The position numbers were made by a program, and so were the translations under genes. Shown in pieces: positions 7,579 through 57,607 of a DNA stretch of 64,000 nucleotides; position 1 is the stretch's first letter, and each line of letters starts with the position of its first letter. Origin of the DNA: Polyangium sp. 15x6 (GTDB lineage: Bacteria > Myxococcota_A > Polyangia > Polyangiales > Polyangiaceae); assembly GCF_029960785.1 (NCBI RefSeq), contig NZ_JASBQE010000025.1, positions 1-64,000 on the forward strand, given 5' to 3'. The notes below the pieces were generated by a model. That model worked only from the letters and a program-made list of their open reading frames with translations. It was not told where the DNA came from and searched no databases.

Positions 7579-7703
7579 TGAAAGTTCGGCCCTTCCGAAC
7601 TCTCTGACTTCCCCGGGGCCTCCCCGATCGGTAGAGTCTCGCCGCCTGCCGGGCACCCAGCCGGCAAACAGTGAACCACGAGACTTCACGAGGAAACGCG
7701 ACC

Positions 7704-27567: not shown

Positions 27568-27621
27568 CCAGGGAACGCTGCTCGGCCTCGCTGGGTACGG
27601 CACGTGCAATCGCTCAGGGCC

Positions 27622-28953
27622 ATGCGAACGAGTCATGCGCCGATGTACGATTTCCGCAGGCGATGGGCGTCCCTCGGCATCGCCGCGGCCACAGCCGCGT
27701 CGTTGCTGCTCGGCGGACATCTCTCGCGCGCGGAGCCCGCAGGCGTCGACGCGCACTGGTACGAGGCCGCCCAGATCCTGGTGCACAGGCCCGGAGAGGA
27801 GGTGTTTTTAGGGCTCCTCCACCCTGCCGCGGCCCTGTTCGAGGATACCTTCAGCCTCGAGGGCGCGGCTGCAGAGCATCGGCAATTCGTGGCGACGCTG
27901 GAGAACCAAGGCGTGGAAAAGGTGACCCACGTGGTCGACGTGCTCCTCGCCGGCACCGAGGATCCGGATGGGGAAGCTCGCCGGGCGCTCGTGGGCCTGG
28001 CGAAACGAATGACGACCCTGGACGTCTCGAGCCTCGGCCCCGCGGATCAAGAAGCGCAGCGGGCCTATTTCGACGAGACCCTCGCGAAGATGGCCCCCAC
28101 GACGCTGGTACGGATGGTCCTCGAGCGCCCCACCGTGGTGTTGCGGTACGGCCAATGCGGCGCCTCCGAGCAGCGCTCCTGCATGCTGGCCGAGTACCGC
28201 CTGAACCCCTTGATGAACCTCTATTTCGCGCGGGATCAGATGGTGACCACGGCCCGCGGCGTGGTGCTCGGCCGGATGGCAAACCCGCAGCGGGCTGCGG
28301 AGCGCGAGGTCATGAAATTCGTCCTCGCCAAGATGGGCATCGAGACCATCTACGAGATCAGCCCGGACGCACGCCTGGAGGGAGGTGATTTCTTCCCAGC
28401 CGGTGAGCGCGCGTTCATCGGCCAGGGGCTGCGGACCAACGCGGCGGCGATCCGAGAAATGCTGGATCACGACGTATTCGGCACGCGCGAGGTGATCGTC
28501 GTGAAGGACGCTTGGCAAGATCCCCGTGAAATGCACCTTGACACGTATTTCAACCTCCTCGACGTCGATCTCGCCTTGCTCGTGGCGGATCGCGACATGC
28601 CCGACTGCGACGTGCGCCGGAGCGTGAAGTGCCTGAAGGCCGACGTGTGGACCCGCAACGCGCAGGGCACCTACGACCTTGCGCGCAAGGATGTGGATTT
28701 CGTGCGGTTCCTCCTGGAAAAAGGGGTCCGCGTACTACCTGTGTCCGTGGAGGACCAAGGGGCTTATGGGATCAACGTCCTCACCATTGGCCCGCGGCGT
28801 ATCATCGGCGCGGAAGGCGTCAGCGAGGCGTACAAGCGTGCCCTCGCCGCGTCCTCCGTGCATGCGACTTGGGTGCGCTTCGACAACCTTCGGCGTGGCT
28901 ATGGCTCCGCAGATTGCATCACCCAGGTCCTCCGTCGGCGACCGCCGAAGTGA
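27622..28953 (+). CDS. Exported arginine deiminase-like enzyme
   Basis: A 443-residue member of the arginine deiminase/amidinotransferase superfamily. The catalytic set is present: FARD at 202-205 (Asp), EGGD at 253-256 (Glu), HLDT at 305-308 (His) and the nucleophile Cys432 in GSADCIT. It would hydrolyse arginine or a guanidino compound to citrulline and ammonia. Unusually, the N-terminus has a basic run and a hydrophobic stretch (WASLGIAAATAASLLLGG, 15-32), so it is predicted to be exported; ordinary arginine deiminases are cytoplasmic. The start is either ATG 27622 or ATG 27643. No other arginine deiminase pathway genes (ornithine carbamoyltransferase, carbamate kinase) are adjacent. Confidence 0.8.
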   Translation: MRTSHAPMYDFRRRWASLGIAAATAASLLLGGHLSRAEPAGVDAHWYEAAQILVHRPGEEVFLGLLHPAAALFEDTFSLEGAAAEHRQFVATLENQGVEKVTHVVDVLLAGTEDPDGEARRALVGLAKRMTTLDVSSLGPADQEAQRAYFDETLAKMAPTTLVRMVLERPTVVLRYGQCGASEQRSCMLAEYRLNPLMNLYFARDQMVTTARGVVLGRMANPQRAAEREVMKFVLAKMGIETIYEISPDARLEGGDFFPAGERAFIGQGLRTNAAAIREMLDHDVFGTREVIVVKDAWQDPREMHLDTYFNLLDVDLALLVADRDMPDCDVRRSVKCLKADVWTRNAQGTYDLARKDVDFVRFLLEKGVRVLPVSVEDQGAYGINVLTIGPRRIIGAEGVSEAYKRALAASSVHATWVRFDNLRRGYGSADCITQVLRRRPPK

Positions 28954-31627: not shown

Positions 31628-33352
31628 TCACCCGCGGAAGCTGCGCCCCGTATGCGGCACGTGCACGAGCCGGCCCTCGCGCCCAGCAATGTGGCTCTCA
31701 TGGGCCGGCGCGGTCGGCGTGACCTCCTGCGCCGGGAACGCGCCGGGCGCCGCGAGGTCGTCGATGAATGCGTCGATTCGCTCGCGCGTGACGTGCTCCA
31801 TCATGTACGCGTGATGATATTGTCGTTTTTCCCCGTCCACGTAGAGCGTCTCGCCCGCCAGCGTGTACTTGAAGGCCAGCGCGGGGTTCACGGCTCGGAA
31901 GCGGATGGTGAGCGAGAGCGGGGCTCGCTCTACCCACAGATCGTGCCCGAGCCGATCGCCGAGCGCACGCAGCCTCCGCTCGGCGTACGCCGAGAGCTCC
32001 TCCGTGTAGAGGGCCTTTTTGATCTGATCCTCGTAGGAGCGCCTGGCGAGGTGTTCCCAGAGGACGAGGGCGGACAGCCCATTGCGTGATCCGGCGAACG
32101 TGGTATCGGGGGAGCCGATGTACTCGGGCCGGCTGGGCGGCCGGAGCAAGAGCTTCGTCCGCGTCATGTACACACCGCAAGGAAAGGGCGCGCCGATCCA
32201 TTTGTGCCCGCTCATCACCAGGGAGCTCACGAACGGGAGGCGGAAATCGAAGTTTGGCCCGCGCGTCGCAATCCGCCCCGCTGCGTGAGCCATCTCCAGG
32301 AAGGGCATGTACGCGGCACCCAGCGCGCCGTCGACGTGGAACCAGTAACCCGTGCGGACGTCGTGCTTCCGCGGGTCTCTCGGATCATAATGGACCTTCC
32401 GCTCGTCGAGGCCGTACCGGCGCAGGATGGGCAGGAGCGCGGCCCCGGCCCCCTCCACGTCGTCGTAGGCTCCCTTGAACGTCGTCCCGTAGTTGAAATT
32501 GACGAGGATCGGGTGGCCCTTCGAGGCGAAGAACTCTACGAGCGTGGCCAGCGCCTCGATGTCGATCACCCCGATGCCGTTCGTCCCGCCGACCGAGGGC
32601 ACCTCGTGCGGCCATGCATTGCCAGGTGAAAGCGGATTATCGCGGGGGTAGCGCTCGGTGCCGATCTCGTAGAACGTGCGGATGTCGAGCACCCGCATCG
32701 CCTTGATGATGGAATAGTGAGTATCCTGCGAATAGAACGCGACGGGGACACGGGCGTTCGGCTGGCCCTCGGGAGCAGGCGCCTGCTGATAGACGAGGCG
32801 CGGCGGCACGACGCGCCTGCCCCTGTTCGAGGCCGCTTCCCTCGCTTCCTCCGCCGACTCGGGATCGATGAGGAGGAACCTCCCGGCGAGGTAGTCCCTT
32901 GCATTCCAGAGCCCGTAGAGGTTCCCTTCGGTCGAGCCCATGGTGAGCATGTAGCCCCAGTACGATTCGCCATCGTCGGGATCGTGCGGGAGTTTTGCGT
33001 GCCAGAGCGAGGCGAAGTAGTCGAGCACGGCGCGCTCGACCCACTTGGTGTTGAAGGTGGCGGATCCGCTCTGGAACGGATCGCCGATGTTGTTGACGTG
33101 CCTACCGAGGTATCGGCCCAGGATCTCCGAGGAATCGATTCGCTCGTTGCACTGGTATCCGAGCATGAGGTCCGTCTGCTGGGACTCGTAACGCCATAAC
33201 GCGTCCATGACCGCCGCGCGCTGTTCGGGTGAGAGGCCCTCCGCCCGCAAGCGAAAGAGCTCGCAATCGAGGCCGGGCACGGGCGTGTATTCGGCGCACG
33301 GCTCCCCGGCACCAGCACGCGTTCGTGTCGCCCATCGTTTTTTGGTGTCCAC
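31628..33352 (-). CDS. PLP-dependent group II amino acid decarboxylase
   Basis: A 574-residue decarboxylase of the group II/histidine decarboxylase type. GDPFQSGSATFNTKWVERAV near 90-108 and YWGYMLTMGSTEGNLYGLW near 131-149 (PLP-phosphate region) resemble bacterial histidine decarboxylases. Asp341 in FHVDGALG contacts the PLP nitrogen and Lys384 in SGHKWIG binds PLP. It is longer than bacterial HDC (about 380 residues), with extra segments near 160-200 and at the C-terminus, so the substrate (His, Glu, aromatic or another amino acid) is open. It is divergent from the M20 amidohydrolase operon in an amino-acid-processing neighbourhood. Confidence 0.85.
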   Translation of the reverse strand: MDTKKRWATRTRAGAGEPCAEYTPVPGLDCELFRLRAEGLSPEQRAAVMDALWRYESQQTDLMLGYQCNERIDSSEILGRYLGRHVNNIGDPFQSGSATFNTKWVERAVLDYFASLWHAKLPHDPDDGESYWGYMLTMGSTEGNLYGLWNARDYLAGRFLLIDPESAEEAREAASNRGRRVVPPRLVYQQAPAPEGQPNARVPVAFYSQDTHYSIIKAMRVLDIRTFYEIGTERYPRDNPLSPGNAWPHEVPSVGGTNGIGVIDIEALATLVEFFASKGHPILVNFNYGTTFKGAYDDVEGAGAALLPILRRYGLDERKVHYDPRDPRKHDVRTGYWFHVDGALGAAYMPFLEMAHAAGRIATRGPNFDFRLPFVSSLVMSGHKWIGAPFPCGVYMTRTKLLLRPPSRPEYIGSPDTTFAGSRNGLSALVLWEHLARRSYEDQIKKALYTEELSAYAERRLRALGDRLGHDLWVERAPLSLTIRFRAVNPALAFKYTLAGETLYVDGEKRQYHHAYMMEHVTRERIDAFIDDLAAPGAFPAQEVTPTAPAHESHIAGREGRLVHVPHTGRSFRG

Positions 33353-36003: not shown

Positions 36004-37356
36004 TTAGTCCACCGGTTGGACGTCGAGTTTGCCGCGGATGCGCTGTACGGCGTAGACGACGAGCGCAACGAGCCCGAGCGTGGCCGCGGCGCGCAGTGCG
36101 GTCGTGTCTTGTCTCATGAGCAGGCCTGCGCAGGACAAGAATCCGAGTACGGGAATGGCCAGCGGCACGGGAAAGGCGGCGGGCGGAGCAGTTGGGTTGC
36201 GTTTGACGCGAATCAACGCGAGGTGCAACAGAATGAACACCACGAGCAGGAACGTCGAGGTGCCGGATGCCAGGGTCTTGATGTCGCGGAAACACAGCAG
36301 CAAGACGATGACGACCGTGACCGCGACCCCCACGCCGACGATGGGCGTGCGCCATGTGGGATGTATGTACGAAAAGAGCGGTGGCAAATACCCCGATCCT
36401 TTCCGTGACATGCCATAGAGGAGACGCGACGTCATCAGCAGATTGAGCAGCGCGGTGTTGAACGCGGCAAACACCGGAACCACGGTGTAAATCCACAGCG
36501 GGAATCCGGGGGCGGCTTTGCGCACGACGTCGATCAGAGGTGATTGGGATTCGGCGAGGGCTGCCGGCGTCACCACGGACACGGCCACCAGCGCGACGAG
36601 ACAGTAGATCAGGATCGTGCCGGCGACGGAAAGACCGATGGCGAGGGGGACGTTGCGCTCGGGATGGATGACTTCCTCGCTGAGGTTGGCGAGATCCTCG
36701 AATCCGATGAAGGCGTAGAACGCCAGGGATGCCCCCGACACGGCGAGCAGCGCGGCGGGCGTGCCCTGGTGTGGTGCTGCGGCCGCGGCGAAATCGAGGT
36801 AACTCACGGAGCCGAGGAACCGCGCGCCGAGGAGGATGACCAAGAGAAGCCCAGAAAATTCGATGACGGTGCAGACGGCATTGGCGGCGGATGACAGCAC
36901 GATTCCGCGCATGGCGATGGCGCCGAGCAGGAACACGAACACGAACGGCACCAGATAATCTCGCGCCACGGGCGGGGCGCCGGGGAGCAATGCCAGCGCA
37001 TAGTTGCCAATGATACGAGCGCCGGTCGCCGTCGAAAAGACCCCCGATAGCCCCACGAAGAAGATTGTGAAAAATGTCACGAACGTATTGCGGTGAATCA
37101 CGTGACAGAAATGGGCGGCGCCGCCGGCCTTGGGATAACGCGAGGTGAGCTCGGCGTAGGTGAGACCGGTGAGGCCCGCGGTGATTCCAGCAATGACGCA
37201 CGACACCCAGGCTGCCGTGCCGGTCATACCAGCGATGCGGCCGACGAGCCCATAAACGCCGGTGCCCAGGATATCGCCGATACCGAAGATGGTGATGGAG
37301 GCGAGGCCGAGCGCGCGCCTGAGCCCCTGCGGTTCTTGGTCGGGTGACGTGGTCAG
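36004..37356 (-). CDS. APC-family amino acid permease, probable CTG start
   Basis: A membrane permease of about 450 residues with 12 predicted helices. The family's first helix (LASITIFGIGDILGTGVYGL) lies upstream of the first ATG (37227), so the true N-terminus must be further out. No in-frame ATG, GTG or TTG exists before the upstream stop; the only sensible start is a CTG at 37356 preceded at the right distance by GAAGGAG. The FIGFEDLANLSEEV segment near the middle is the typical APC helix 6 region. The substrate is unknown; proline or another catabolised amino acid would suit the context. It may instead be a gene with a recently mutated start codon. Confidence 0.8.
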   Translation of the reverse strand: MTTSPDQEPQGLRRALGLASITIFGIGDILGTGVYGLVGRIAGMTGTAAWVSCVIAGITAGLTGLTYAELTSRYPKAGGAAHFCHVIHRNTFVTFFTIFFVGLSGVFSTATGARIIGNYALALLPGAPPVARDYLVPFVFVFLLGAIAMRGIVLSSAANAVCTVIEFSGLLLVILLGARFLGSVSYLDFAAAAAPHQGTPAALLAVSGASLAFYAFIGFEDLANLSEEVIHPERNVPLAIGLSVAGTILIYCLVALVAVSVVTPAALAESQSPLIDVVRKAAPGFPLWIYTVVPVFAAFNTALLNLLMTSRLLYGMSRKGSGYLPPLFSYIHPTWRTPIVGVGVAVTVVIVLLLCFRDIKTLASGTSTFLLVVFILLHLALIRVKRNPTAPPAAFPVPLAIPVLGFLSCAGLLMRQDTTALRAAATLGLVALVVYAVQRIRGKLDVQPVD

Positions 37357-37496: not shown

Positions 37497-38912
37497 TCAT
37501 TTCGCCGCGACGGCCCTCCAGGCGAAGTACACGGGCACGCCGAGCGCGACGATCACGAGTCCTGGCCACGTGTATCCCGGCTTCTCGAGCAGCAGATCCA
37601 CGCAGATCAGGGCCGTGAGCAGGACGTGAAGCGCGGGCAGCCAGGGATACCCCACGACCTTCACGGGCCGATCGACGTGGGGCCGCTTGATCCGGAGGGC
37701 GAAGAGGCCCACCGTGGTGAGCATGTAAAAGAGCAGCGTGGCAAAGATGACGTAATCGAGGAGCTGCGAATACGTCCCCGACAGGCAGAGCACGCTGGTC
37801 CAGACGGCCTGGACGACGAGCGCCACGGCCGGGGTACGATGACGCGGGTGGAGGACGCCGGCGGCCTTGAAGAAGAGCTCGTCGTGGGCCATCGCGTAGT
37901 AGACCCGCGCCCCCGCGAGGATCATTCCATTGGCGCAGCCGAGGGTGGAAATCATGATCCCGGCAGCCATGACCGAGGCCCCGACCGCGCCGAGGATCGC
38001 ATCGAACACCGCCGTACCCACGCGATCCTGGGGAGCGTGGGCGATCGCCTCCCCGGGCAGGACGGATAGATAAGCCAGGTTCGCGGCCAGATACAGGATC
38101 GTCACCACGACGACGCCGGAGGCCATTGCGAAGGGGAGATCGCGCTTCGGGTTCGTGAGCTCGTCGGCCGCGAAGCCCACGTTGTTCCAGGCGTCCATCG
38201 AAAACAAGGCGCCCACCATCGCGGCCCCGAGGACCGGCAGATGCGCGAGCGCGAGCCCACCCTCCGGCCAGAACGCCTCGCCGAAGTTGGCCCCGATGGC
38301 CTCGGCATTCCGCCCGATGCCGATCCCCACCCCGATGAGGCCGACGAGCAGCGCGATTTTGATGAGGGTGAGCGAGCTCTGGAGGAACGCCGCGATCTTC
38401 ACGCCGCGCACGTTGATCCAGGTGAGTATCGCCACGACGACGATTGCGAGCGCGCGCTGGGGAGAGAGCCCGATCTCGACGGGACCGCTCGGGAGCACGA
38501 GGGTGAGCCCGAAGGACACGTCGGGGGAGAGCGCAGGCACGAACACGGCGGAGAAGCGGGCGAACGCCACCGCGACGGCGGCGATCGTGCCCGTCTGGAT
38601 GATCATGAACAGCGTCCACCCATAGAGATAACCGAAGAGCGGGGAGATCCCTTCGCGCAGATAGACATACTGCCCGCCCGCCCGCGAAAACATGGCCGCG
38701 AGCTCGCCTTGCGTGAGCGCGCCGAAGATGGTGACGAGGCCGGCGGAGATCCAGACGAGCAGGAGCAGGCCGGGGGCGCGCACCAGGCGAAGGATGTCGG
38801 CAGAGACGATGAAGATGCCCGAGCCAATCATCGAGCCAGCGACGAGCGCCGCGGCGTCGAACCGCGAGAGCGCCTTCACGAACCCGATCTCGGCCCTTTG
38901 TGTCGCCGGCAT
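37497..38912 (-). CDS. APC-family amino acid permease
   Basis: A 471-residue permease with 12 predicted transmembrane helices. Helix 1 holds GSMIGSGIFIVSADI, the unwound substrate-binding G-S/A-G motif of APC transporters; helix 6 contains FSMDAWNNVGFAADEL. It resembles the LAT-like/YfnA group that imports neutral or cationic amino acids, with exchange or proton symport. It is divergent from the proline racemase gene (93-bp gap), so import of a racemase substrate such as proline or hydroxyproline is an attractive but unproved guess. The permease genes lie in tandem with a 140-bp gap. Confidence 0.87.
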   Translation of the reverse strand: MPATQRAEIGFVKALSRFDAAALVAGSMIGSGIFIVSADILRLVRAPGLLLLVWISAGLVTIFGALTQGELAAMFSRAGGQYVYLREGISPLFGYLYGWTLFMIIQTGTIAAVAVAFARFSAVFVPALSPDVSFGLTLVLPSGPVEIGLSPQRALAIVVVAILTWINVRGVKIAAFLQSSLTLIKIALLVGLIGVGIGIGRNAEAIGANFGEAFWPEGGLALAHLPVLGAAMVGALFSMDAWNNVGFAADELTNPKRDLPFAMASGVVVVTILYLAANLAYLSVLPGEAIAHAPQDRVGTAVFDAILGAVGASVMAAGIMISTLGCANGMILAGARVYYAMAHDELFFKAAGVLHPRHRTPAVALVVQAVWTSVLCLSGTYSQLLDYVIFATLLFYMLTTVGLFALRIKRPHVDRPVKVVGYPWLPALHVLLTALICVDLLLEKPGYTWPGLVIVALGVPVYFAWRAVAAK

Positions 38913-39005: not shown

Positions 39006-40019
39006 ATGGCGAGATTTTCACACGTGATATCGGCGATCGATTCGCACACGGGAGGCGAGCCCACCCGGATTGTCCTGAGCGGCCTGCCGCATCTCCCCGG
39101 GGGCACGATGGCCGCGAAGAAGCGGCACATGGAGGAGCACCTGGACCACTTCCGCACGCTGCTCATGCGCGAACCCAGGGGGCATCACGACATGTTCGGG
39201 GCCATCCTCACGCCGCCCGTTGGCGAGCACAGCCATCATGGCCTCCTGTTCATGGATCACGCGGGCTACCTCGACATGTGTGGTCACGGCGTGATCGGCG
39301 TTGCTACGGTCCTCATCGAGCTTGGCATGATCGCGGCCACGGAGCCGGAGACCGTGGTGGTTTTCGACACGCCTGCCGGCGTGGTCGAAGGTCACGCCAG
39401 GGTCGAGGCGGGGCGCGTGGTCGAGGTCGCCGTCGCCAATGTCCCCTCGTTCGTCTACGAAAGGCAGGTCGAGCTCACCTTGCCCGGCGTGGGCGTCATC
39501 GACGTCGACGTCTCCTTCGGGGGGAACTTCTTTGCCATGGTCGACGCGAGCAAGCTCGGCGTGCCGATCCACCGCGACCACATCCCTCGGCTCATCGAGC
39601 TCGGGATGATGGTGAAGGACGCCGTCAACGAGAAAGTGAAGGTCCAGCACCCCGCGAAGCCAGACATCGACCGCGTCGAGCTGACCGAGATCTACGAACG
39701 ACCCGAGCCGACCACCCCATTCTCCAGGAGCATGGTGGTGTTCGGACGAGGTCAACTGGATCGTTGCCCGTGCGGCACCGGCCTCTCGGCGCTCATGGCC
39801 ACCCTGCATGATCGCGGGGAGCTGCCGCTCGGGGTCGAGCTCGTCGACGAGGGCATCATCGGCACTCGCTTCAAGGGAAGGCTCACCCGAGAGCTCCAGG
39901 TGGGCGGCTCCCGCGCGGTCCGGCCGATCCTCGTCGGAAGGGCCTACGTGACGGGCATCCAGCAGTTCGTGGTCGATCCGGATGATCCCCTGAAATACGG
40001 GTTCGTCGTCGGGCGATGA
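39006..40019 (+). CDS. Proline racemase / hydroxyproline epimerase family
   Basis: A 337-residue cofactor-independent racemase. The two catalytic thiols are present: Cys92 in MCGHGVIG and Cys256 in PCGTGLSA, which separates true racemases/epimerases from the dehydratase branch that has Thr or Ser in place of a cysteine. The N-terminal HVISAIDSHTGGEPTRI is typical. It would interconvert L- and D-proline (or 4-hydroxyproline epimers) in the cytoplasm. The neighbouring D-proline reductase-like gene favours proline, since PrdF-type racemases supply D-proline to that enzyme. Its 3' end faces the nitrilase-family gene 21 bases away. The start region is duplicated at 35884. Confidence 0.9.
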   Translation: MARFSHVISAIDSHTGGEPTRIVLSGLPHLPGGTMAAKKRHMEEHLDHFRTLLMREPRGHHDMFGAILTPPVGEHSHHGLLFMDHAGYLDMCGHGVIGVATVLIELGMIAATEPETVVVFDTPAGVVEGHARVEAGRVVEVAVANVPSFVYERQVELTLPGVGVIDVDVSFGGNFFAMVDASKLGVPIHRDHIPRLIELGMMVKDAVNEKVKVQHPAKPDIDRVELTEIYERPEPTTPFSRSMVVFGRGQLDRCPCGTGLSALMATLHDRGELPLGVELVDEGIIGTRFKGRLTRELQVGGSRAVRPILVGRAYVTGIQQFVVDPDDPLKYGFVVGR

Positions 40020-40040: not shown

Positions 40041-41105
40041 TCACTCAGGCTCTTCCGGATACACTCTCTCCTCCCCGGACGTCTGGTCCACGTACGTCCG
40101 CGCCGTGAGCTGGCCATAGAGATTCCAGCGGCGGTCGCGCATGTAGTGCGTGGCCGCCATCTTGTCCCCGATCATGGTCTCCGGGTGCGTGGGGCCATAA
40201 AAACCGGGCACACAGTCGGCGATCATCAGCATTTGATCATTCCAGCCGCAACAAGCCTCGTCGGGCCTTCCTTTCGGCAGGCAGATCTCGGGAAGCAGGT
40301 AATGACCATGAGGGTCGACCAGGCAACTGTTGCCGAGATAGCAACCCACGATCCGACCGTCCTGGGTCTCGAGCCCCTTCCGGTTGCTGTAGGCACAAAA
40401 AATCTCGTTCTGGTATGCGTTGGCGCGAATCAAGAAGTCGATATTGGGATAAGCCGTCCTGGTCCTCTCTCCGGTCCGCAGCATGGTAAACTCATCGGCC
40501 GCCGTGGGGATGACCACGAGCTGGGCGCCCTTCAGAGCCAGGATGCGGCAAAGTTCGGGAAACTCCGCCTCGTAGCAGTTCAGAACGCCGACGCCGATAC
40601 CATGGACCCTGAATACCGTGAAAGCCTCGCCTTCCTCGGGATGAACATGGCCAAAGGACCAGCTATTGCGCTCGTCCCCACCCCAGAGGTGGGTCTTGCG
40701 ATAGTTCTTGAGCAGCCCGCCATCCGGTCCATGTACCACGATGCTGTCGTAGTATCGCCGCTCGCCGGCCACGGTGGCCGCTTCGGGATAGGGACAGATG
40801 ATGGCGAGCCCGTTCTCCTTGGCCGTGGCAGCCACCCGGTCCAGGATGCCTTCCCTCTGGATCGACTCGGCCATCTCGTGGGTCGCGGCTGCATCCGTCA
40901 CGTCGTACCCGGTCAGGAACAACTCGGGGAAGCTCAACAGATGGACACCGTATGTCCGAGCTCTCGCCGCGGCTTCGCGCAAGACCTCCAGGTTGCGCAT
41001 CACGGCTGCCATGTCGCCGGCCGTGCCATGCCCCTGATAGAGCCCCAGCCGCAGGTGGGGCACCTCGGGCGGTATGTTGTCGCTGATGAAGCTTTGAATG
41101 ATCAT
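40041..41105 (-). CDS. Carbon-nitrogen hydrolase (nitrilase superfamily)
   Basis: A 354-residue amidase/nitrilase-fold enzyme. The Glu-Lys-Cys triad is complete: Glu61 in SFPELFLTGY, Lys137 in RKTHLWG and Cys177 in LNCYEAEFPE. It is longer than usual at the C-terminus (RVYPEEPE tail). The family hydrolyses amides, nitriles or carbamoyl groups. It is the last gene of the gcvPA-gcvPB-prdAB operon (27-base gap from prdAB), so it may act on a metabolite of proline or glycine breakdown, for example a 5-aminovalerate derivative; that substrate is a guess. Confidence 0.85.
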   Translation of the reverse strand: MIIQSFISDNIPPEVPHLRLGLYQGHGTAGDMAAVMRNLEVLREAAARARTYGVHLLSFPELFLTGYDVTDAAATHEMAESIQREGILDRVAATAKENGLAIICPYPEAATVAGERRYYDSIVVHGPDGGLLKNYRKTHLWGGDERNSWSFGHVHPEEGEAFTVFRVHGIGVGVLNCYEAEFPELCRILALKGAQLVVIPTAADEFTMLRTGERTRTAYPNIDFLIRANAYQNEIFCAYSNRKGLETQDGRIVGCYLGNSCLVDPHGHYLLPEICLPKGRPDEACCGWNDQMLMIADCVPGFYGPTHPETMIGDKMAATHYMRDRRWNLYGQLTARTYVDQTSGEERVYPEEPE

Positions 41106-41132: not shown

Positions 41133-43445
41133 TCATGCGCTGCGCCGGTACTCGTACGGCAGCACCTTGGTCTGCCCGAAATGGGTCATCACCTCGACCG
41201 CGCGCAGCGTATCCTTGAGAATCGCCGTTTGCATCTCCACATTGCGGGGCTCGCCGGCGTTCGAGCCGATGGGGACGTGGGGCGCGGTGATGCGGGGCGC
41301 GCCCTGCTGCCTGGCAATCGGAGGCAACGCAGCAATGAGGATCGTGGAGATGCCCGCGGCCTCCACGGCGCGCTGTACGATGACCGCCGAGCGGTGGCAG
41401 GTGCCGCACCCGCCCGTGAAGACCGCGACGTCCACGCCCTCGTCCTTCAGGATCTTCGCAATGGTGGGTCCGCTCTCGTCGCGGAACCTGTCCACGTCGC
41501 CGCCGCCCCCCATGAATCCGATCAGCGTCGGCGCGACCTTGCCGATGAAGCCCTCGGCCTCGAGCTCGCGCAGGCGGTCGATCGGGAACATCGCGTTGAT
41601 GTCCCGGTTCACGTCGCTGTTGTCGAAGCCGCCATGGCTGACCATCAGCTCGGAGGACGGTGTCGTTCTCGCGATTTCGCGAAACGTGGGATCGCCGGAC
41701 AGGACGAACGGCTTCTGGGATTTCAGATGGACGCCGCCCGCCGTGCAAAGGGCCACGACGCACGCGGAAAGCGGCTTCATGAGGGGCGTCCAGACCGCAG
41801 GCGGCGTGATGGGAACGTAAATTTCGCTCCTCAGCCCTGTCGCTGTCGTGGGCTTCGTGGTTTCTCCTCGGTCGACGAGCCTCTGGTTTGCGTCGATGAC
41901 CGCCTGGGTCCACCTGGGGCTCGCAGGCTCGATCGGGATACCCGCCATCTTCGTCTTGAGCATCGACAAGGCGCGCCGCGCGTCTTCGGGGCACAAGGTG
42001 CATTCGCCGAGGGTCTCGCTCTCACGGCCCTCCGGATTCTTGTTGAGCTCGATCATCGCGTCCATGTATCGGTTGCCGACGACGAGCTGGCCCTGATGGG
42101 CAGAGAACGATGCGCCGACCACGCTGATTCCGCGCGCGCCGATTTGCTCGATGCTTTCGGCGAAATCGATATGGTTGTTGCCGAAGCCCTCGGTCGTGAG
42201 GATCACGCCGTCCACGCTGAGCGCTTCCACGAGCGCGCCGAGGCGCGCCGAGACGAATGTCTTTTCATCGTCGACCTGCGGGCTGCCGATGAAGACGACG
42301 CCCACGAGGTCGATCGCCCCGTCCTCCGCCATCAGGCGCAGCAGCGGCTCGCGAAAATAGTGGCGTGTGGTCTCCTTGGTCGCGGGGCCGACGCAGGTCA
42401 GCGCGTGGATGCCCCCATCGCGCACCTCGTTGGGGGAGAGCACGACCGGCACGTTGCCGAGGTCGACGTCCAGGCGGCCCCCCCTGGCGCCCGCGGGCTC
42501 GGCCGGCAGCAGCAATTTCTCGTGCATTGCGCCCTGGCCCATGATCTCCTTGACGAGCACGACGCGCGGCCTGCCGGGCTTCTTCATGTCGTGATGGGTC
42601 TTCACTCCAATGCAGCCCCTCGCGGGGGCTCTTTTTAGGGATTCGCGGATTTCTTGCATGATGACGTCGCACGCCTTGTGCGCCGCTTGAGGGCCACGGC
42701 GCTCCATGCCGATGCCGGCCTGGAGGACGACGTTGACGCGCACCATGAGGTCGCCGAAGTCCGGGCAGCCCGGGCGGCCAAAGCAGATCGTTTCGTCCAG
42801 ATATCCTTCGCAGGAGCCGAACTCGTGGAGCTGCATGCCATTTTCGTCCACGCCCGTGAGAATGAACACCAGGCCTTCCATCACGTGCGTCACGCCCTCG
42901 CCAAGCTTGCCCTCCACCTTCGTGGCGACCGGAATGACATCCATGATGGTATTGGTGAAGATGTGCCGACTGTCGGGCGTGACCACATCCATCTCCACCT
43001 TCTTGACGAGGAGATCGGCCATAGACGACTCCTCGCGCAGCGATTCGCGGATGGTCAGCTTCCCGTCCTCGAAGGAGGTCTTGCCCGCAATCTGTACCTG
43101 GCGGACGTCGTATATCCTGTGCCTGAGCGTGCGCAGGACCCGCTCCGACGGCGCGGTGGGCTCGAGGGGCGCCACGTGACACGCGGCGGAGGCGGGGGCG
43201 TCTTCGACGAGGGCCGGGGTCAGCGGAGTGAGGGCGTCCGTGGTCTCCTTGAGCGTCGCGCCGAGGACCTGGCCGATGGTCAGCGCGCCCGCGGGAATCG
43301 AAAGGAGGCCCGAGCCCTCGAGCTCGGGGAACATGGAGGGATCCTCCAGGTGTACGGCGCCGATGACTGCTCCCTTGGGCGTCCGACAGCAGAGGACGGC
43401 AGGGGCGTCCCTGTGGAGGTTCGCGGTTTTCATCGAAATGGACAT
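41133..43445 (-). CDS. Fused D-proline reductase PrdA-PrdB, Cys instead of Sec
   Basis: A 770-residue protein. Residues 1 to about 535 match the PrdA proprotein of D-proline reductase. Blocks FTNTIMDVIPVATKV (163-177), GEGVTH, VVLSPNE and RHYFREPL are present, and ALTCVGPATKE holds Cys351, the residue that in PrdA becomes the active-site pyruvoyl group when the chain is cut. Residues from about 538 match PrdB: SEIYVPITPPAVWTP, MVSHGGFDNSDVNRDIN and FTGGCGTCHRS. In clostridial PrdB the residue here (Cys680) is selenocysteine; in this gene it is a TGC codon (41406-41408). The known enzyme reduces D-proline to 5-aminovalerate in Stickland fermentation. No stop or frame change separates the halves. 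An electron-delivery PrdC is not in the window. Confidence 0.88.
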   Translation of the reverse strand: MSISMKTANLHRDAPAVLCCRTPKGAVIGAVHLEDPSMFPELEGSGLLSIPAGALTIGQVLGATLKETTDALTPLTPALVEDAPASAACHVAPLEPTAPSERVLRTLRHRIYDVRQVQIAGKTSFEDGKLTIRESLREESSMADLLVKKVEMDVVTPDSRHIFTNTIMDVIPVATKVEGKLGEGVTHVMEGLVFILTGVDENGMQLHEFGSCEGYLDETICFGRPGCPDFGDLMVRVNVVLQAGIGMERRGPQAAHKACDVIMQEIRESLKRAPARGCIGVKTHHDMKKPGRPRVVLVKEIMGQGAMHEKLLLPAEPAGARGGRLDVDLGNVPVVLSPNEVRDGGIHALTCVGPATKETTRHYFREPLLRLMAEDGAIDLVGVVFIGSPQVDDEKTFVSARLGALVEALSVDGVILTTEGFGNNHIDFAESIEQIGARGISVVGASFSAHQGQLVVGNRYMDAMIELNKNPEGRESETLGECTLCPEDARRALSMLKTKMAGIPIEPASPRWTQAVIDANQRLVDRGETTKPTTATGLRSEIYVPITPPAVWTPLMKPLSACVVALCTAGGVHLKSQKPFVLSGDPTFREIARTTPSSELMVSHGGFDNSDVNRDINAMFPIDRLRELEAEGFIGKVAPTLIGFMGGGGDVDRFRDESGPTIAKILKDEGVDVAVFTGGCGTCHRSAVIVQRAVEAAGISTILIAALPPIARQQGAPRITAPHVPIGSNAGEPRNVEMQTAILKDTLRAVEVMTHFGQTKVLPYEYRRSA

Positions 43446-43470: not shown

Positions 43471-44994
43471 TCACCGGCCGATGGCGGCGGGAGGGCTTTC
43501 GGCACCGGCGGCAGCGGTGCCGGTAGGCGGCTCCGACGCTGGGCGCTTCTGTTCGTGCGCCCGCTCTGGGCCGCGGGAGCCCGGCGGAAGAATCTTCCCG
43601 ACCTCGCGGGTATGGGGCGCCGTCCGGACCAGGTCCGGGTCCTCCAGGGCCTCACGCGCGACACGGAGGAACTTCTCGATCATCCGATCCAAAGACTCCC
43701 GCGTCTCCGTCTCCGTCGGCTCGATCAGCATCGCGTCGCGCAGGTGGCCGGGAAAGTACACGCAGCCGGCGCCCACCAGCGTCGGGGGATGCACCCCGTA
43801 GTCAATGAGCCGCTTGGCGAAGTCGAAGGCGCTCACTTGGAGCTCTGCAGTGCTCAGCAGACACTCGTGCATGCACCGGCCGCCGAAGACCGGGGGCAGG
43901 CAGGGTGACAAGCGGGCCTGGACGTAGTTCGCGTTGAGCACAGCGTTCTCGGACACCGTGCGCAGGCCCCGGGGACCAGAGGTCAGGATGTAGCAATAGG
44001 CCCGGATCAAGACACTGACGTGGCCGTAGAACGACTTCATCCGGCCGATCGATTGCGGCCGGTCTTCATCCGGAAAGTATCCGCGCGCATCCCGGCGGAT
44101 CACTGGAATCGGCAGGAAGGGTTCCAGAAACGCCTTGACGCCGCACGGCCCCGAGCCCGGTCCTCCGGACAGGTGCGGGGTCGAGAACGTCTTGTGGGTG
44201 TTGAGCTGGAGGACGTCGAATCCCATGTCGCCGGGCCGGACGATCCCCATCAGCGAGTTCATGTTGGCGCCGTCGTAGACGAGGAGCGAGCCATTTGCAT
44301 GGACGCGCTCCGCGATCTCCCGAATGTTCTTCTCGAAGAGGCCGAAGGTCGAGGGGTTGGTCAGCATCACCGCTGCGACCGAGTCGTCGAGCACGGCCTC
44401 GAGCGCGTCGAGGTCGGTCCATCCCTCCGGGGTGGTCCGGATCATCTTGCAGCGATAGCCCGCCATGGACGCGGACGCGGGATTGGTGCCATGGGCCGAA
44501 TCCTGAATGAGGACCACGTCTCGCTTCATGCCCCGGGACTCGAACCAGGCGCGGACGAGCATGAGCCCCGTGAGCTCGCCGTGCGCTCCGGCCGCGGGCT
44601 GCAGGGTGAAATGGTCCATCCCCGTGAGCTCCGCGAAGTGTTCGGCGAGGTGGAAGAAGAGCTCCCAGAGGCCGGACAGCGTGCTTTCGGGTTGCCTCGG
44701 GTGAGCATGAGCGAAACCCGAAAGGTTTGCCAGGGGCTCGTGGCGCTTGGGGTTGTACTTCATCGTGCAGCTCCCGAGCGGATAGGTGCCATCGTCTACG
44801 CCATAGGCGCGGTGGCCGAGCGCAGTGTAATGGCGGACGAGCTCGACCTCGCTCACCTCGGGCAGCCCGATGGGCTCGGTCCGGAGCGACGCCGCGTCGA
44901 ACCACTGGGAAGGATCGAGCTCCCCGAAATCGGGATCCGAGAGGCCCGCTCCGCTCACGCCCGGGCGGGAAATGTCGAAGATCGTCTGCTTCAT
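43471..44994 (-). CDS. gcvPB: Glycine dehydrogenase (decarboxylating) subunit 2
   Basis: A 507-residue PLP-binding subunit of the two-subunit glycine cleavage P-protein. The PLP lysine is Lys268 in LNTHKTFSTPHLSGGPGSGP. DGTYPLGSCTMKYNPK (68-83) and HGTNPASASMAGY are family hallmarks. With subunit 1 it decarboxylates glycine and passes the aminomethyl group to GcvH. A Pro/Ala/Glu-rich tail of about 40 residues (from about 465) is extra compared with the family. It overlaps gcvPA by four bases (ATGA) and is followed 25 bases later by prdAB. No gcvH, gcvT or lpd gene is in this operon. Confidence 0.92.
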   Translation of the reverse strand: MKQTIFDISRPGVSGAGLSDPDFGELDPSQWFDAASLRTEPIGLPEVSEVELVRHYTALGHRAYGVDDGTYPLGSCTMKYNPKRHEPLANLSGFAHAHPRQPESTLSGLWELFFHLAEHFAELTGMDHFTLQPAAGAHGELTGLMLVRAWFESRGMKRDVVLIQDSAHGTNPASASMAGYRCKMIRTTPEGWTDLDALEAVLDDSVAAVMLTNPSTFGLFEKNIREIAERVHANGSLLVYDGANMNSLMGIVRPGDMGFDVLQLNTHKTFSTPHLSGGPGSGPCGVKAFLEPFLPIPVIRRDARGYFPDEDRPQSIGRMKSFYGHVSVLIRAYCYILTSGPRGLRTVSENAVLNANYVQARLSPCLPPVFGGRCMHECLLSTAELQVSAFDFAKRLIDYGVHPPTLVGAGCVYFPGHLRDAMLIEPTETETRESLDRMIEKFLRVAREALEDPDLVRTAPHTREVGKILPPGSRGPERAHEQKRPASEPPTGTAAAGAESPPAAIGR

Positions 44995-46358
44995 TGCCTC
45001 AGCGCTCCGATCGTCTCCGCGAACATGGCCGCGGCCTCGTCCAGTTCGGCGCGCGCTCTCACCTCGGTGACCGCGACGAGGAGGTTGCCATCCACCTCCC
45101 ATCCGGCGAAAACGCGCCGCTCCAGCATTCGCTCCAGGAACACTTGCACGGGGCAGGGGAGCCGGAGCGCGAATTCGTTGAAGAACGGACCGGTCGCCGC
45201 AGGCTCGACGCCGGCAATGGCGAGCAGCTTCTCGTGAAAGTAACGGGCCTTGGCAGCGCATTGCGCGGCGACCTCCCGGAAGCCCCGCTCGCCGAGGGCT
45301 GCCAGGTAGATGGCGGCGCGCATCGCCTGGTGCGCCTGGTTCGAGCAGATGTTGCTCGTGGCCTTCTCGCGGCTCACCTGCTGCTCGCGCTGCTGCATGA
45401 TGAGCGCGAGGGCTGGCTTGCCATGAATGTCCCGCACCTCCCCGACGAGGCGCCCCGGCATGAATTCGCGCAGGCGCTTCGTGCAGGCGAGCACCCCGAG
45501 CGAGGGGCCTCCGGCCGACAGCGGCAGGCCGAGGGGCTGGCCCTCGCACGTCACGATGTCCGCTCCGAGCTCGCCCGGTGGCTTCAGGAGCGCCAGCATC
45601 ATCGGGTAACACGAGACATTGAGGAGGGCCTCGTGCTGCCGGCAGAGGGCCGCGGCGGCGGGGATCTCCTCCAGGATGCCGAGGGAATTGGGGGTCTGCA
45701 GGAGGAAGGTGGCCGCGGGGCGGCAGAACGACTCCTTCAGCGAGCGCAGATCGAACCGACCCGAGACGGGATCCGCGGCGACGTAGGCCACCTCGACTCC
45801 GCGCCCGCGCATGTAGAGCTCGAGGACCGCCTTCCATTCGGACCAGATGCGCGAGGATGCGAGGACACGCCGCCGGCCCGTGGCTGCGCAGGCCATCCAG
45901 GCTGCCTCGGCCATTGCCGTGGCGCCATCGTAGAGCGAGGAATTGACGACCCGCAGACCCGTGAGCAGCGAGAGCATGCGCTGGTACTCGAAGAGGATCT
46001 GGAGCAGGCCCTGGCTCAGCTCCGGCTGGTACGGGGTGTAAGCCGTGAGCAGTGCCTCGCTGGAGGTGAGGCTGTCGACGACCGCGGGGATGTGGTGCTC
46101 GTAGACTCCGCCGCCAAGGAAGCTCAGGTGGGTCCGGGTCGATGCGTTCCTTCCCGCGAGCTGCCGCAAATGCCTGCCGAGCGCCCATTCGTTATGGGGA
46201 GCAGGCAGGCGAAGCTCTCTGCCGAGGCGCACTTCCTGGGGAATGGCGGAAAAGAGCTCCGCGATGCTCGTGAGCCCGAGGGCCTCCAGCATGGCCTTTC
46301 GGTCGGCCTCTCGGTGGACGTTGTAGCCACAGATGAGCGGCTCGGGATGACTCTCCAT
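44991..46358 (-). CDS. gcvPA: Glycine dehydrogenase (decarboxylating) subunit 1
   Basis: A 455-residue subunit, the N-terminal half of P-protein. [15 protein letters not shown] near 69-83, [38 protein letters not shown] and [15 protein letters not shown] near 340-355 are typical motifs. The start is the ATG at 46358, preceded by CTGGAG. It heads a minus-strand operon gcvPA-gcvPB-prdAB-nitrilase and is divergent from an amino acid ABC transporter operon, with a 266-bp gap containing no obvious repeat or operator. The split P-protein with prdAB downstream suggests glycine oxidation paired with proline reduction. Confidence 0.92.
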
Positions 46359-46624
46359 CGTGACGAGCTCCAGAGAGAAGGACGCACTCCGGCTCGAAGC
46401 TGGGGTGGGCCTCCGCGGACCGCAAGACCACGAAGAAGGTCGATGGTTCGCGCGTGCGTTCGCGCTCCCGCTCCGGGGGTCCTGTCGGCTCGGCGCCAAG
46501 GAAGCCTGCGCCCGCCTGGACAACCTGTGCAGCCTCTTCGATCGCCAGCGCGACGAATGGATGGGTTGGGCGAGCCGGCGTCTGGTCCGGTTCGTGCCCG
46601 GATTCATGCCGAGAGAGGACAAGA

Positions 46625-53376: not shown

Positions 53377-53844
53377 ATGGAGAAGGAATCCCTCGCCCGA
53401 TCGATCGCGCAGCATTCCCTCGTCGCCGGCATGTCCGATGAGCACGTCGACTTCCTGAGCGGCTGCGTCAGGAACGTCCGCCTCGACGAGGGCCAGTTAC
53501 TCTTCCGCGAGGGCCAGCGCGCCGATGAGCTTTACCTCATTCGCTCCGGAAAAATCGCCCTCGAGATCCACGATGGCGCCCGTGGAACCATCGTGGTCGA
53601 GACCGTCGGCGGGGGTGACGCGCTCGGCTGGTCGACGCTCTTTCCACCCTATCGGTGGGGGCTCGATGCGCGCGGAATCCATCTGGCGCACCTCTTCGCG
53701 ATCGATGGCGCCTGCCTGCGCGCCAAGCTCGAGGCCGACCACGGCTTCGGGTACGCCTTCACCCGACGGCTTTTGAACGAGGTCCACAGCCGCCTGCAGC
53801 GGGCGCGGCTGCAAACGCTCGACGTCTATCGGGCCAGGCCATGA
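53377..53844 (+). CDS. Cyclic nucleotide-binding domain protein in hydrogenase operon
   Basis: A 155-residue single cNMP-binding domain of the Crp/Fnr fold without a DNA-binding domain. LRADEGQLLF-type strands, [19 protein letters not shown] and a [17 protein letters not shown] hinge are seen. The arginine of the cAMP phosphate-binding cassette is not obvious, so it may bind another ligand or none. It lies between the beta and gamma subunit genes, 9 bases after the first and overlapping the second by four bases, so it probably associates with or regulates the hydrogenase. Confidence 0.85.
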
Positions 53845-54680
53845 ACGTCTCCTCCGCCCCCGACCCCATGCTCCCCGAGCCGCTCCGCATCACACGAGCG
53901 AAACGGGAGATGCACGGTGTGTTCACGTTCGAGCTCGACGTCTCTGCCCGCGGCGGTTTTCCGTTCCTGCCGGGGCAATTCAACATGCTGTACCCGTTCG
54001 GTGCCGGTGAATCGGCCATTTCGATCAGCGGTGATCCCCACCAGCCCGATCGGCTCGAACACACGATCCGCGCCGTGGGCGCGGTGACGCGTGCCCTCGA
54101 GCGCCTCGGCCGTGGTGACGTCGTGGGCGTGCGCGGGCCGTTCGGCAGCGCCTGGCCGATCCGTGAGGCGGAGGGAAGCGATCTCGTGGTGATCGCTGGC
54201 GGCATCGGCCTCGCCCCGCTGCGCCCCGTCGTCTACCACGCGCTCCGCCGTCGCGAAGCGTTCGGCAAGGTCGCTTTGCTCTATGGCACCCGCACCCCCG
54301 ACGACATCCTCTACCGCAAGGAGATCGAGCGCTGGCGCGGCAGGCTCGACGTCGAGGTCGAGGTCACGGTCGACACGGCCGGGAGCGACTGGCGAGGAAA
54401 TACGGGCGTCGTCACCAAGCTCATCAGCCGGGCCGCATTCGATCCAGGAAGAGCGTTCGCCATGATTTGCGGCCCCGAGATCATGATGCGCTTCTGCGCC
54501 CGCGAGCTCGAGCGGCTCGGCGTCTCGCTGGACAGGATATGGATCACCATGGAGCGCAACATGCGCTGCGGCATCGGCCTCTGCGGTCATTGCCAGTTCG
54601 GTCCCTCCTTCGTGTGCAAAGACGGCCCCGTGTACCGCTACGACCGGGTGCAGGACCTGCTCCTGGTGAGGGAGGTGTAA
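53841..54680 (+). CDS. hydG: Hydrogenase gamma subunit, FAD/NAD(P)-binding
   Basis: A 279-residue ferredoxin-reductase-like subunit. FAD-binding strands are in [20 protein letters not shown]; the NAD(P)-binding part starts at [16 protein letters not shown]; a C-terminal 2Fe-2S site is in [19 protein letters not shown], like dihydroorotate dehydrogenase electron-transfer subunits. It accepts or donates hydride from NAD(P)H for the hydrogenase. The ATG overlaps the upstream stop (ATGA). Confidence 0.9.
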
Positions 54681-54681
54681 C

Positions 54682-55494
54682 GTGCCTACACGGAAGAAGA
54701 GACCCAAGCTGGCCGTCTTCAAGTTCGCCTCCTGCGACGGCTGCCAGCTCAGCCTCCTCGATTGCGAGGACGAGCTGCTCCTCTTGGCCGACGCTGTTCG
54801 GATCGCGAGCTTCGCCGAGGCATCGAGCAGGGTCCTTCGGGGCCCGTACGACATCAGCCTGGTCGAGGGGTCGATCACCACACCGCACGACGCCGAGCGG
54901 ATCCGCGAGGTCCGCGCCCAGTCGCGCGTCCTCGTCACCATTGGCGCGTGCGCCACGTCTGGCGGCGTCCAGGCGCTCCGCAACTTCCGTGACGTGAAGG
55001 AATTCGCGCGTGTCGTCTATGCGCGACCGGAGTACATCGACACGCTCGCGACCTCGACGCCCATCGCGGACCACGTGAAGGTCGATTACGAGCTCCGCGG
55101 TTGCCCCATCGACAAGCGCCAGCTCCTCGCGGTGCTCTCGGCGCTGCTCTCCGGCCGAACGCCATCGATCGCGAGCCACTCGGTGTGCATGCAATGCAAG
55201 CTGCGCGGAAATGTCTGTGTCATGGTCGCGCACGGGACGCCCTGCCTCGGCCCGGTCACGCACGCGGGCTGTGGCGCCCTCTGCCCGACGTACCACCGCG
55301 GTTGTTATGGCTGCTTCGGCCCGGCCGAGACGACGAATACGGGCGGGCTCGAATGGGCGCTCGTCGCCGCAGGCGCGAGCCAAGAGGACATCGCGCGGAC
55401 CTACGCCACGTTCAACACGGCCGCGCCACCGTTCCGGAGGGCGCAGGAAGAGCAACTCGTGCAGATCCGGTTGAAGGAGGGGCGCCGTGGCTAG
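54682..55494 (+). CDS. hydD: [NiFe] hydrogenase delta (small) subunit
   Basis: A 270-residue small subunit of the NADH:ubiquinone oxidoreductase 20-kDa family. The proximal 4Fe-4S ligands are in [19 protein letters not shown] and ELRGCPID; a further cysteine-rich stretch ([32 protein letters not shown]) lies in the C-terminal half, typical of 3b enzymes. It relays electrons from the active site to the beta subunit. The GTG start is supported by GGGAGG at 54670-54675. It overlaps the large-subunit gene by 8 bases. There is no Tat signal, so the enzyme is cytoplasmic. Confidence 0.92.
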
Positions 55495-56776
55495 GACGAT
55501 CAAGGTCGATTACCTCGCGCGCGTCGAGGGCGAGGGGGCGCTCACCATCCGGTTCAAGGGTGACAAACCCTCGGCGGTCGAGCTGCGTATCTTCGAGCCG
55601 CCTCGCTTCTTCGAGGCTTTCCTGCGCGGCAGGGCATACCAGGAAGTCCCCGATATCGTCGCGCGCATCTGCGGCATCTGCCCCGTCGCTTACCAGATGA
55701 GCGCCTGCCACGCGATCGAGGACGCGCTCGGCATCCGGACGGACGGCACGCTCCGCGCGCTTCGGCGTCTGCTCTACTGCGGCGAGTGGATCGAGAGCCA
55801 CGGGCTGCACGTGTTCATGCTGCACGCGCCCGATTTCCTGGGCTACGAGGACGCGATCGCGATGGCGAAGGACCACCGCGAATGGGTCGTGCGAGGCCTC
55901 GGCATCAAGAAGGCTGGAAATGCAATCGTGGCCGCCCTCGGCGGCCGGGAGATCCATCCGATCAACGTCAAGGTCGGCGGGTTCTACCGGGTGCCGACTC
56001 GAGCTGAGCTATCAGCGCTCTTGCCCGCGCTGGAAACTGCGCTCGGTGATGCGGAGATGTGCCTCGCCTGGGCGGCGCGGTTCGATTTCCCGGCGTTCGA
56101 GCGTGATTACGAGTACGTCGCGCTGCGCCATGCGGACGAATACCCGTTCTGCGAGGGTCGCATCGTCTCGAACAAGGGCCTCGACATCGACCTGCACGCG
56201 TACGAGGAGCACTTCGCCGAGCTGCAAGTGCCGCACTCGACAGCGCTGCACTCGGTCGTTCGCGGCCGAGGCGACTATCAGTGCGGGCCGCTCGCCCGGT
56301 TCAACCTGAACTTCGATCGGCTCGGCGAACGGGCCCGTGACGCCGCAGAGCGCGTGGAGTTCGTCCCGCCCTGCCACAACACATACAAGAGCCTACTCGC
56401 GCGTATGGTTGAGATCATCCAGGCGCTCGACGAGGCGATCCGAATCATCCACGGGTACGCGCCGCCCGACGCGCCCGCGATCGCGGCCGCCCCGCGCAGG
56501 GCCACGGGATATGGCTGCACGGAGGCGCCGCGCGGCATGCTCTGGCACAAATACACGCTGGACGAGGCTGGGCTCGTCGAGGACGCCCGCATCGTCCCGC
56601 CCACCTCCCAGAACCAGAAATGCATCGAGCAGGATCTCTGGCAGCTCGCCCCGACGCTCGCCGCGATGCCCCACGCGGCGGCCACGCGGCGGGCCGAGCA
56701 GGCCGTGCGCAATTTCGATCCCTGCATCTCCTGCTCGACCCACTTTTTACGCCTTGCAATCGAACGGGAGGATTGA
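55487..56776 (+). CDS. hydA: [NiFe] hydrogenase alpha (large) subunit
   Basis: A 429-residue catalytic subunit. The four nickel-binding cysteines are present: RICGICP near residues 60-66 (L1 motif) and DPCISCSTH near 414-422 (L2 motif). After the L2 His a 10-residue tail remains, which the operon's protease should remove after nickel insertion. The length and motif form ([14 protein letters not shown]) place it with group 3b cytoplasmic NADP-reducing hydrogenases. It interconverts H2 and protons using NAD(P). The protease gene begins one base after its stop codon. Confidence 0.95.
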
Positions 56777-56777
56777 T

Positions 56778-57239: not shown

Positions 57240-57256
57240 AGAGGAGCCGACGATCT

Positions 57257-57598: not shown

Positions 57599-57607
57599 GA
57601 GGACGCT

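Follow-up and report, generated by a model that had tools for sequence, protein, structure and literature searches.

A fused, cysteine-type PrdA-PrdB gene in Polyangium and its probable clostridial origin

D-Proline reductase has been described as a selenoenzyme from anaerobic members of the Bacillota (PMC3091704, PMC13188914). In the proposal for the clostridial enzyme set out in PMC3091704, PrdA gains a pyruvoyl group by processing and binds D-proline through it, the selenol of PrdB attacks the alpha carbon, and a PrdB cysteine resolves; the cycle ends with reduction by PrdC with NADH and hydrolysis to 5-aminovalerate. The UxxC motif of PrdB, where U is selenocysteine (Sec), is listed in PMC13188914. 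Here we describe a gene on a contig of Polyangium sp. 15x6 (NZ_JASBQE010000025.1, positions 1 to 64,000; this 64,000-nucleotide stretch is hereafter the window) in which PrdA and PrdB form one chain with cysteine at the Sec position. By family tests, its product is a D-proline reductase that lies outside the canonical selenium operon. Taken together, the comparisons make it quite likely that a working D-proline reductase from Bacillota entered the Polyangiaceae as separate prdA and Cys-type prdB genes and was fused in Polyangium.

Two reductase families in one reading frame

The gene and its parts, all on the minus strand, are as follows.
41133..43445 (stop included), minus strand: fused D-proline reductase PrdA-PrdB, 770 amino acids, from translation, profile matches and homologues
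41862..43445, minus strand: PrdA part, residues 1-528, an N-terminal domain (about 1-82) and a core, from the TIGR04480 score and aligned homologues
41850..41873, minus strand: junction, residues 525-532; homology ends at residue 524 (PrdA) and starts at 533 (PrdB)
41136..41849, minus strand: PrdB part, residues 533-770, from the TIGR04483 match
42393..42395, minus strand: TGC codon of Cys351, the predicted pyruvoyl-forming residue after Thr350 (ALT/C), from aligned homologues
41406..41408, minus strand: TGC codon of Cys680, at the Sec position of PrdB, from the codon alignment

Translation of the window gave a frame of 770 codons at 41133-43445 with no internal stop. The protein passed both curated NCBI equivalog cut-offs, scoring 779.7 bits against TIGR04480 (PrdA, cut-off 700) and 439.3 bits against TIGR04483 (PrdB, cut-off 300). 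The PrdA match falls into two stretches, the best of which aligns residues 99-524 with profile positions 162-587 of 587; the PrdB match places residues 533-768 on positions 1-236 of 238. An earlier sequence-only reading had seen PrdA and PrdB modules in one uninterrupted frame of an apparent myxobacterium and had named a profile search of the two halves as the check. The scores bear it out on both counts, and the host is indeed a soil myxobacterium, Polyangium; the join, which it had put near residues 535-545, is placed nearer 525-532 by the profile boundaries.

Protein B of the glycine, sarcosine and betaine reductases (GrdB, GrdF, GrdG, GrdH) belongs to the same superfamily, and PF09338 and PF07355 match the window protein. 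A Grd-type identity was rejected, with scores far below the equivalog or exception cut-offs set for GrdF (83.4 against 800 bits), GrdH (73.9 against 775), GrdB (64.5 against 602.2) and GrdG (58 against 780). The sole Grd-side model passed was the broad subfamily model TIGR01918, 'glycine/betaine/sarcosine/D-proline family' (69.3 against 65.45).

The gene is single-copy in the 13.4-Mb window genome (G000), and a fused homologue with 92% identity to the window protein occurs in Polyangium sp. y55x31 (genome G368, locus L001). For the whole frame, the ratio of non-synonymous to synonymous substitution rates (dN/dS) between these two genes was 0.207; the PrdA core gave 0.227 and PrdB 0.133. Selection on the fused gene is purifying. 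The 21 codons round the junction gave a relaxed ratio of 1.48, from too few codons to weigh.

Ancestry, the cysteine and the fusion

At the PrdB active site, Cys680 is followed by Cys683 (41397-41399), so that C680-G-T-C683 puts a CxxC nucleophile motif in place of UxxC. Both Cys351 and Cys680 (TGC) lie where the first reading had placed them. We compared 36 distinct loci, 3 myxobacterial and 33 from Bacillota: the window, L001-L012, the five plasmid loci L065-L069, and the hits of a further search, L074-L092 and L097, after dropping L083 and L090 as duplicates of L003 and L007. The Thr-Cys pair of the pyruvoyl site was present in all 36 rows (38 with the two duplicates). The codon aligned to Cys680 was TGA in 30 rows and specified Cys in six, namely the three myxobacteria and L066, L067 and L080; the last three, out of 33 Bacillota rows, use TGT. 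The proposed replacement of Sec by Cys thus stands for the TGC at the Sec codon and falls as a myxobacterial novelty, since three Bacillota loci share it. Cys homologues of PrdB in the broad sense are also already in print, in tables of PMC1088965 and PMC2398784.

In a joint tree built without the Cys/Sec column, the myxobacterial genes formed one group (support 100/100), which joined L066 and L067, again at 100/100. This tree needs two Cys/Sec changes and three fused/split changes. Trees of PrdA alone and PrdB alone both had L066 as the nearest row outside the myxobacteria, and a single clade of all six Cys rows was not rejected by the approximately unbiased test (p-AU 0.453). Because the myxobacterial genes group with Cys-type L066 and L067, the cysteine was probably already present in the donor and inherited. 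The nested tree position points to Bacillota as the donor and suggests the direction of transfer, and the fused enzyme is probably of clostridial origin.

A host lacking Sec machinery does not account for the cysteine. The window genome has a Sec tRNA (71.3 bits, cut-off 47) with an adjoining SelB (289.5 bits for the best piece, cut-off 242.25); selB lies next to this tRNA at C66:162981-165061. Both were also over cut-off in y55x31, side by side, and in a third Polyangium genome (G433), some 3 kb apart. In this search, which covered two components, tRNA-Sec and SelB, 5 of 14 control genomes passed the tRNA cut-off and 2 the SelB cut-off. Polyangium G000 therefore probably makes selenoproteins, and the description 'selenium-free' holds for the enzyme and not for the cell, as G000 and G368 carry both components. 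In the genome of Sorangium cellulosum So0157-2, neither tRNA-Sec nor SelB reached its cut-off.

That Sorangium genome (G442, locus L002) holds split prdA and prdB, 84% and 88% identical to the window protein. Its prdA ends in TGA, and a spacer of 94 bases separates this stop from the ATG of prdB, which is preceded by GAGGAG. This spacer leaves no room for the small CBO2463/CBO2479-type gene that separates prdA and prdB in three split Bacillota loci with annotation. The window junction keeps GAGGAG (41864-41869) ahead of the old prdB start, which is now ACG (41856-41858); in y55x31 the two frames are joined and the old start is still ATG, read as an internal Met. Since Sorangium has the enzyme as two genes, the Polyangium fusion probably arose through a deletion that took out the stop of prdA together with most of the spacer, with the prdB leader read through. 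The suggested order is therefore Cys for Sec in the donor, transfer to Sorangium (no Sec machinery over cut-off) and Polyangium (with it), and then fusion.

The first reading had assumed that clostridial enzymes use two genes, but this is not general: among the 33 Bacillota loci, four encode both proteins in a single frame (L065, on Peptoclostridium acidaminophilum plasmid EAL2_808p, and L091, L092 and L097). These short fusions are without the N-terminal domain and have TGA at the Sec site. A survey of the residue at position 680 in fused homologues, which that reading had proposed, gave a divided answer, with Cys in both Polyangium fusions and TGA in the four from Bacillota. A common origin of the six fused rows was rejected (one clade, log-likelihood 173 lower, p-AU 2.6e-79), and the Polyangium fusion is therefore a separate event. 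In the open-licence literature searched, we found no mention of fused PrdA-PrdB or of D-proline reductase in myxobacteria, which does not by itself show that they are unpublished. As a side observation, the PrdA-core/PrdB frame at L065:5962-7986 is single with one in-frame TGA, and the plasmid gene table, incomplete by design, lists prdB alone (7273-7986).

Distribution and neighbouring genes

Homologues were sampled in Myxococcota and Bacillota; beyond them, an exact-peptide-pattern scan covered genome contigs (12 loci) and a plasmid collection (25 records, 5 inspected). Of the 108 genomes of the family, seven had matches: two fused, one split, one remnant and three distant (26-31% identity). 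At E up to 1e-45, the order yielded the same four near ones among 183 genomes (two fused, one split, one remnant). The remnant, in the third Polyangium (G433; L119:11015-11600), is broken into three pieces, which correspond to residues 364-476, 549-607 and 748-770. Across the phylum Myxococcota, 79 of 377 genomes matched, 77 of them with distant matches alone, at up to 41% identity. These distant matches (for example, L015-L042) lie nearly all in the PrdB part and carry an in-frame TGA; many are GrdB-like selenoprotein candidates, mostly outside Polyangiaceae. In the order of genome G532, close matches occurred in 8 of 22 genomes, and in all eight prdB gave a match of its own. In one of them, G899, prdA and prdB lie within one wide frame, but a TAA stop parts the genes.

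The genes flanking the fused gene in the window are listed here.
44991..46622, minus strand: gcvPA-2, glycine decarboxylase P-protein subunit 1 (NF001696, 490.4 bits, cut-off 364)
43471..44985, minus strand: gcvPB-2, second glycine decarboxylase P-protein subunit 2 (NF003346, 615.5 bits, cut-off 441)
40041..41105, minus strand: CN-hydrolase (nitrilase superfamily), next gene downstream (PF00795, 134.2 bits)
39006..40019, plus strand: proline racemase family protein, convergent (PF05544, within a longer frame; PRK13969, 434.5 bits, under the cut-off of 556)
37497..38912, minus strand: APC-type amino-acid permease A (PF13520), also beside the G433 remnant
36004..37227, minus strand: APC-type amino-acid permease B (PF13520)

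Upstream of the fused gene by 25 bases, on the same strand, lies gcvPB-2, with gcvPA-2 before it. The true start of gcvPA-2 is probably near 46373, since homology to other genomes starts at codon 84. In G000 and G368, this second P-protein shares 48-49% identity with the other copy. Among the 108 family genomes, gcvPB-2 occurs in four: all three with an intact reductase, plus G339 (Fisher exact test for co-occurrence, 2e-5, in related genomes with a mobile cassette). This association is better evidence of linkage than of function. The distance between gcvPB-2 and prdAB is about 23 kb in Sorangium; in y55x31, permease B sits between gcvPB-2 and the fused gene.

The CN-hydrolase reached no cut-off among NCBIfam models. 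It also adjoins prdB in Sorangium, and L120, a locus of the same genome as L001, has a 29-residue match alone. The racemase has Cys92 (CGHG) and Cys256 (PCGTG), which we take to be the catalytic pair; its nearest solved structure is AsProR (7pb3, E 1.3e-107). In the window, L001 and Sorangium, the three loci with an intact enzyme, at most one gene separates the enzyme from a racemase gene. A racemase and permease A also lie beside the G433 remnant, in a genome from which the second gcvPB is absent.

Between the window and Sorangium, dS was 0.22 for PrdA, 0.37 for PrdB, 0.23-0.24 for gcvPA/PB-2 and 0.54 for the CN-hydrolase. Five other window genes (racemase, two hydrogenase subunits, HypF and pyruvate phosphate dikinase (PPDK)), which served as yardsticks with orthology taken as given and were not chosen as housekeeping genes, ranged from 0.61 to 1.07. 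The pattern suggests that the reductase and P-protein genes passed between Polyangium and Sorangium recently and that the racemase has a different history.

Elsewhere in the window, a [NiFe] hydrogenase set (53655-61244; NAD-binding/Fe-S subunit, small and large subunits, HypF, HypD) lies beside the PPDK-like gene, and relatives of four genes of this region lie near gcvP-2 in Sorangium. Arginine deiminase and pyridoxal phosphate-dependent decarboxylase family genes occur in the same region as the reductase, at 27331-28953 and 31628-33352, and add to its genes for amino-acid metabolism.

Proposed chemistry, rival explanations and known relatives

The cleavage and chemistry steps that we propose are carried over from literature on the clostridial enzyme. 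The racemase would convert L-proline to D-proline. Cutting the chain between Thr350 and Cys351 would leave a 350-residue alpha chain and a 420-residue pyruvoyl-beta-PrdB chain; the longer one would carry both the carbonyl and the nucleophilic thiol, in a ratio of 1:1. D-Proline would bind the pyruvoyl group, the Cys680 thiolate would attack the alpha carbon and the ring C-N bond would break; Cys683 would then resolve the thioether to give a 680-683 disulfide, and hydrolysis would free 5-aminovalerate. With CxxC for UxxC, the product would be a plain disulfide, reducible by a thioredoxin-type dithiol; such a cellular dithiol may replace the missing PrdC. The adjoining second P-protein may pair the reductase with glycine oxidation.

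An AlphaFold2 model built from 26 sequences reached a mean predicted local distance difference test score (pLDDT) of 86.3 and a predicted template-modelling score of 0.78, falling below 50 pLDDT at residues 83-97, 304-307 and 529-532; a single-sequence model reached a pLDDT of 34.3. Neither sequence nor fold searches of the PDB gave a related solved structure. The sequence searches had a best E of 0.005 with the protein, for a dehydratase, and of 0.23 with alignment A2. A Foldseek search of the AlphaFold2 model against the PDB gave one match at E 5.2e-4 (8wzu_B, probability 0.47), with TM-scores by query length of 0.07-0.14 among the 50 matches listed.

No electron-donor gene was recognised beside the fused gene. 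PrdC (TIGR04481, cut-off 490) was over cut-off in 5 of 6 Bacillota genomes or records, and matches under it occurred in 8 of 14 control genomes. For PrdD and PrdE, which are paralogues of the halves of PrdA, the fused protein as query found itself alone in G000 among 33 candidates scored, in a scan that did not include the PrdD model itself; the same query does find PrdD/PrdE in Bacillota loci. A second prd set without prdD/prdE is reported for C. botulinum in PMC3091704. At L009:12577-13784 and L099:2452-3659, PrdD and PrdE jointly match PrdA, as two genes whose boundary coincides with the PrdA cleavage site, and the two PrdE chains read start MG(I/V)GPSTKE, without the Cys. The Enterococcus gilvus plasmid pCR1A encodes a 411-residue PrdA paralogue with its halves swapped, PrdE-like first and PrdD-like second (L067:3372-4607), and an Anaerococcus locus matches the N-terminal domain of PrdA a second time (40% to residues 1-90), just upstream of prdA (L007:10001-10270).

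Several observations weigh against a working D-proline reductase of the origin that we propose. Cysteine usually slows the rate where Sec is native, and none of four myxobacterial genomes had PrdC over cut-off (best 45.2 bits). In the AlphaFold2 model, mean pLDDT was 63 at residues 351-360, just after the cleavage site. The tree position is blurred by L067, which has a long branch and falls outside the myxobacteria-L066 group for PrdA alone. G339 carries gcvP-2 without the reductase, which weakens the pairing. The racemase stayed under the cut-off of all six NCBIfam models that it matched, proline racemase being the best, and the Sorangium racemase is 56% identical to it. Across six Polyangium genomes there were two fused genes, one remnant and three without a match; the reductase gene is dispensable, since three of the six have none and one has fragments alone. 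Moreover, myxobacteria are described as aerobes in PMC4765838.

Some of these points could be read in other ways. The enzyme might be a PrdAB-type reductase for another cyclic D-amino acid, such as hydroxy-D-proline, with the racemase as an epimerase. The racemase scores leave room for this, as 4-hydroxyproline epimerase (295.2 bits) and trans-3-hydroxyproline dehydratase (331.3 bits) match alongside proline racemase (434.5); however, the enzyme scores above the equivalog cut-offs for D-proline reductase and the nearest solved structure of the racemase, AsProR, is a proline racemase, so we hold this substrate switch to be improbable. Somewhat less probable still is a fading import, weakly expressed or silent and heading for loss as in G433. 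Patchy presence in the genus, the three-fragment remnant, the CN-hydrolase fragment in L120 and the failure to find PrdC, PrdD or PrdE in the searches above would fit such decay, but a dN/dS of 0.207, an intact frame in two species and the retention of both active-site cysteines speak for maintenance.

The retained GAGGAG in the window and the ATG in y55x31 would also suit translation that starts internally at the former prdB start codon, which would still yield two chains. In the window, however, that codon is ACG and the next in-frame ATG (Met556) lies 26 codons on, past the conserved start of PrdB, making this a very unlikely account. An assembly or sequencing artefact, which could draw on the stop and 94 bases that Sorangium has at this place, is so improbable that we set it aside: the same in-frame join occurs in two Polyangium genomes whose fused proteins are 8% different. 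This 92%-identical fusion, with the whole-frame dN/dS, argues that no sequencing slip is involved, and it contradicts the stop or frameshift between the halves that the first reading had named as fatal to it. Contamination was likewise rejected, the same neighbour genes being found in two other Polyangium genomes.

A working D-proline reductase, imported and then fused, thus remains our preferred explanation, and it raises the question of how an aerobic predator would use a Stickland-type electron acceptor; the fused gene may let it use proline as an electron dump. More tentatively, and with distinctly less confidence than in that explanation, we suggest a portable selenium-free Stickland couple: the P-protein would oxidise glycine, and the racemase-fed single-chain reductase would take the electrons via a general thioredoxin system, not PrdC, as a redox outlet in zones of swarms or fruiting bodies that are poor in oxygen, with the reductase and P-protein genes moving between genera. 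A one-gene, standard-codon version is in any case an ordinary protein to express, and PrdA processing and the fit of pyruvoyl subunit to nucleophile subunit become directly testable.

Compared with PrdA/PrdB of Clostridium (Acetoanaerobium) sticklandii and relatives, as described in PMC3091704, the window enzyme is alike in families over cut-off, the Thr-Cys of the pyruvoyl site, a UxxC/CxxC motif and a racemase in the cluster. It differs in being a single chain, in having Cys for Sec and a shorter link from the N-terminal domain to the core, in a genome where no PrdC, PrdD or PrdE was found and in the adjoining second glycine decarboxylase P-protein. Against the canonical selenium prd operon of Bacillota, it lacks the Sec codon TGA and the separate genes, and shares a nearby gene that clearly belongs to the proline racemase family. 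In the joint tree, the rows nearest to it outside the myxobacteria are L066, from Paraclostridium bifermentans plasmid CP124691.1, and L067, from Enterococcus gilvus pCR1A. These two also have Cys (TGT) in PrdB, yet keep separate prdA and prdB with a CBO2463/CBO2479-type gene between them, and have PrdC. The prdA-prdB pair of Sorangium cellulosum So0157-2 matches the window in the Cys at the Sec position and the adjoining CN-hydrolase, and differs in being two genes.

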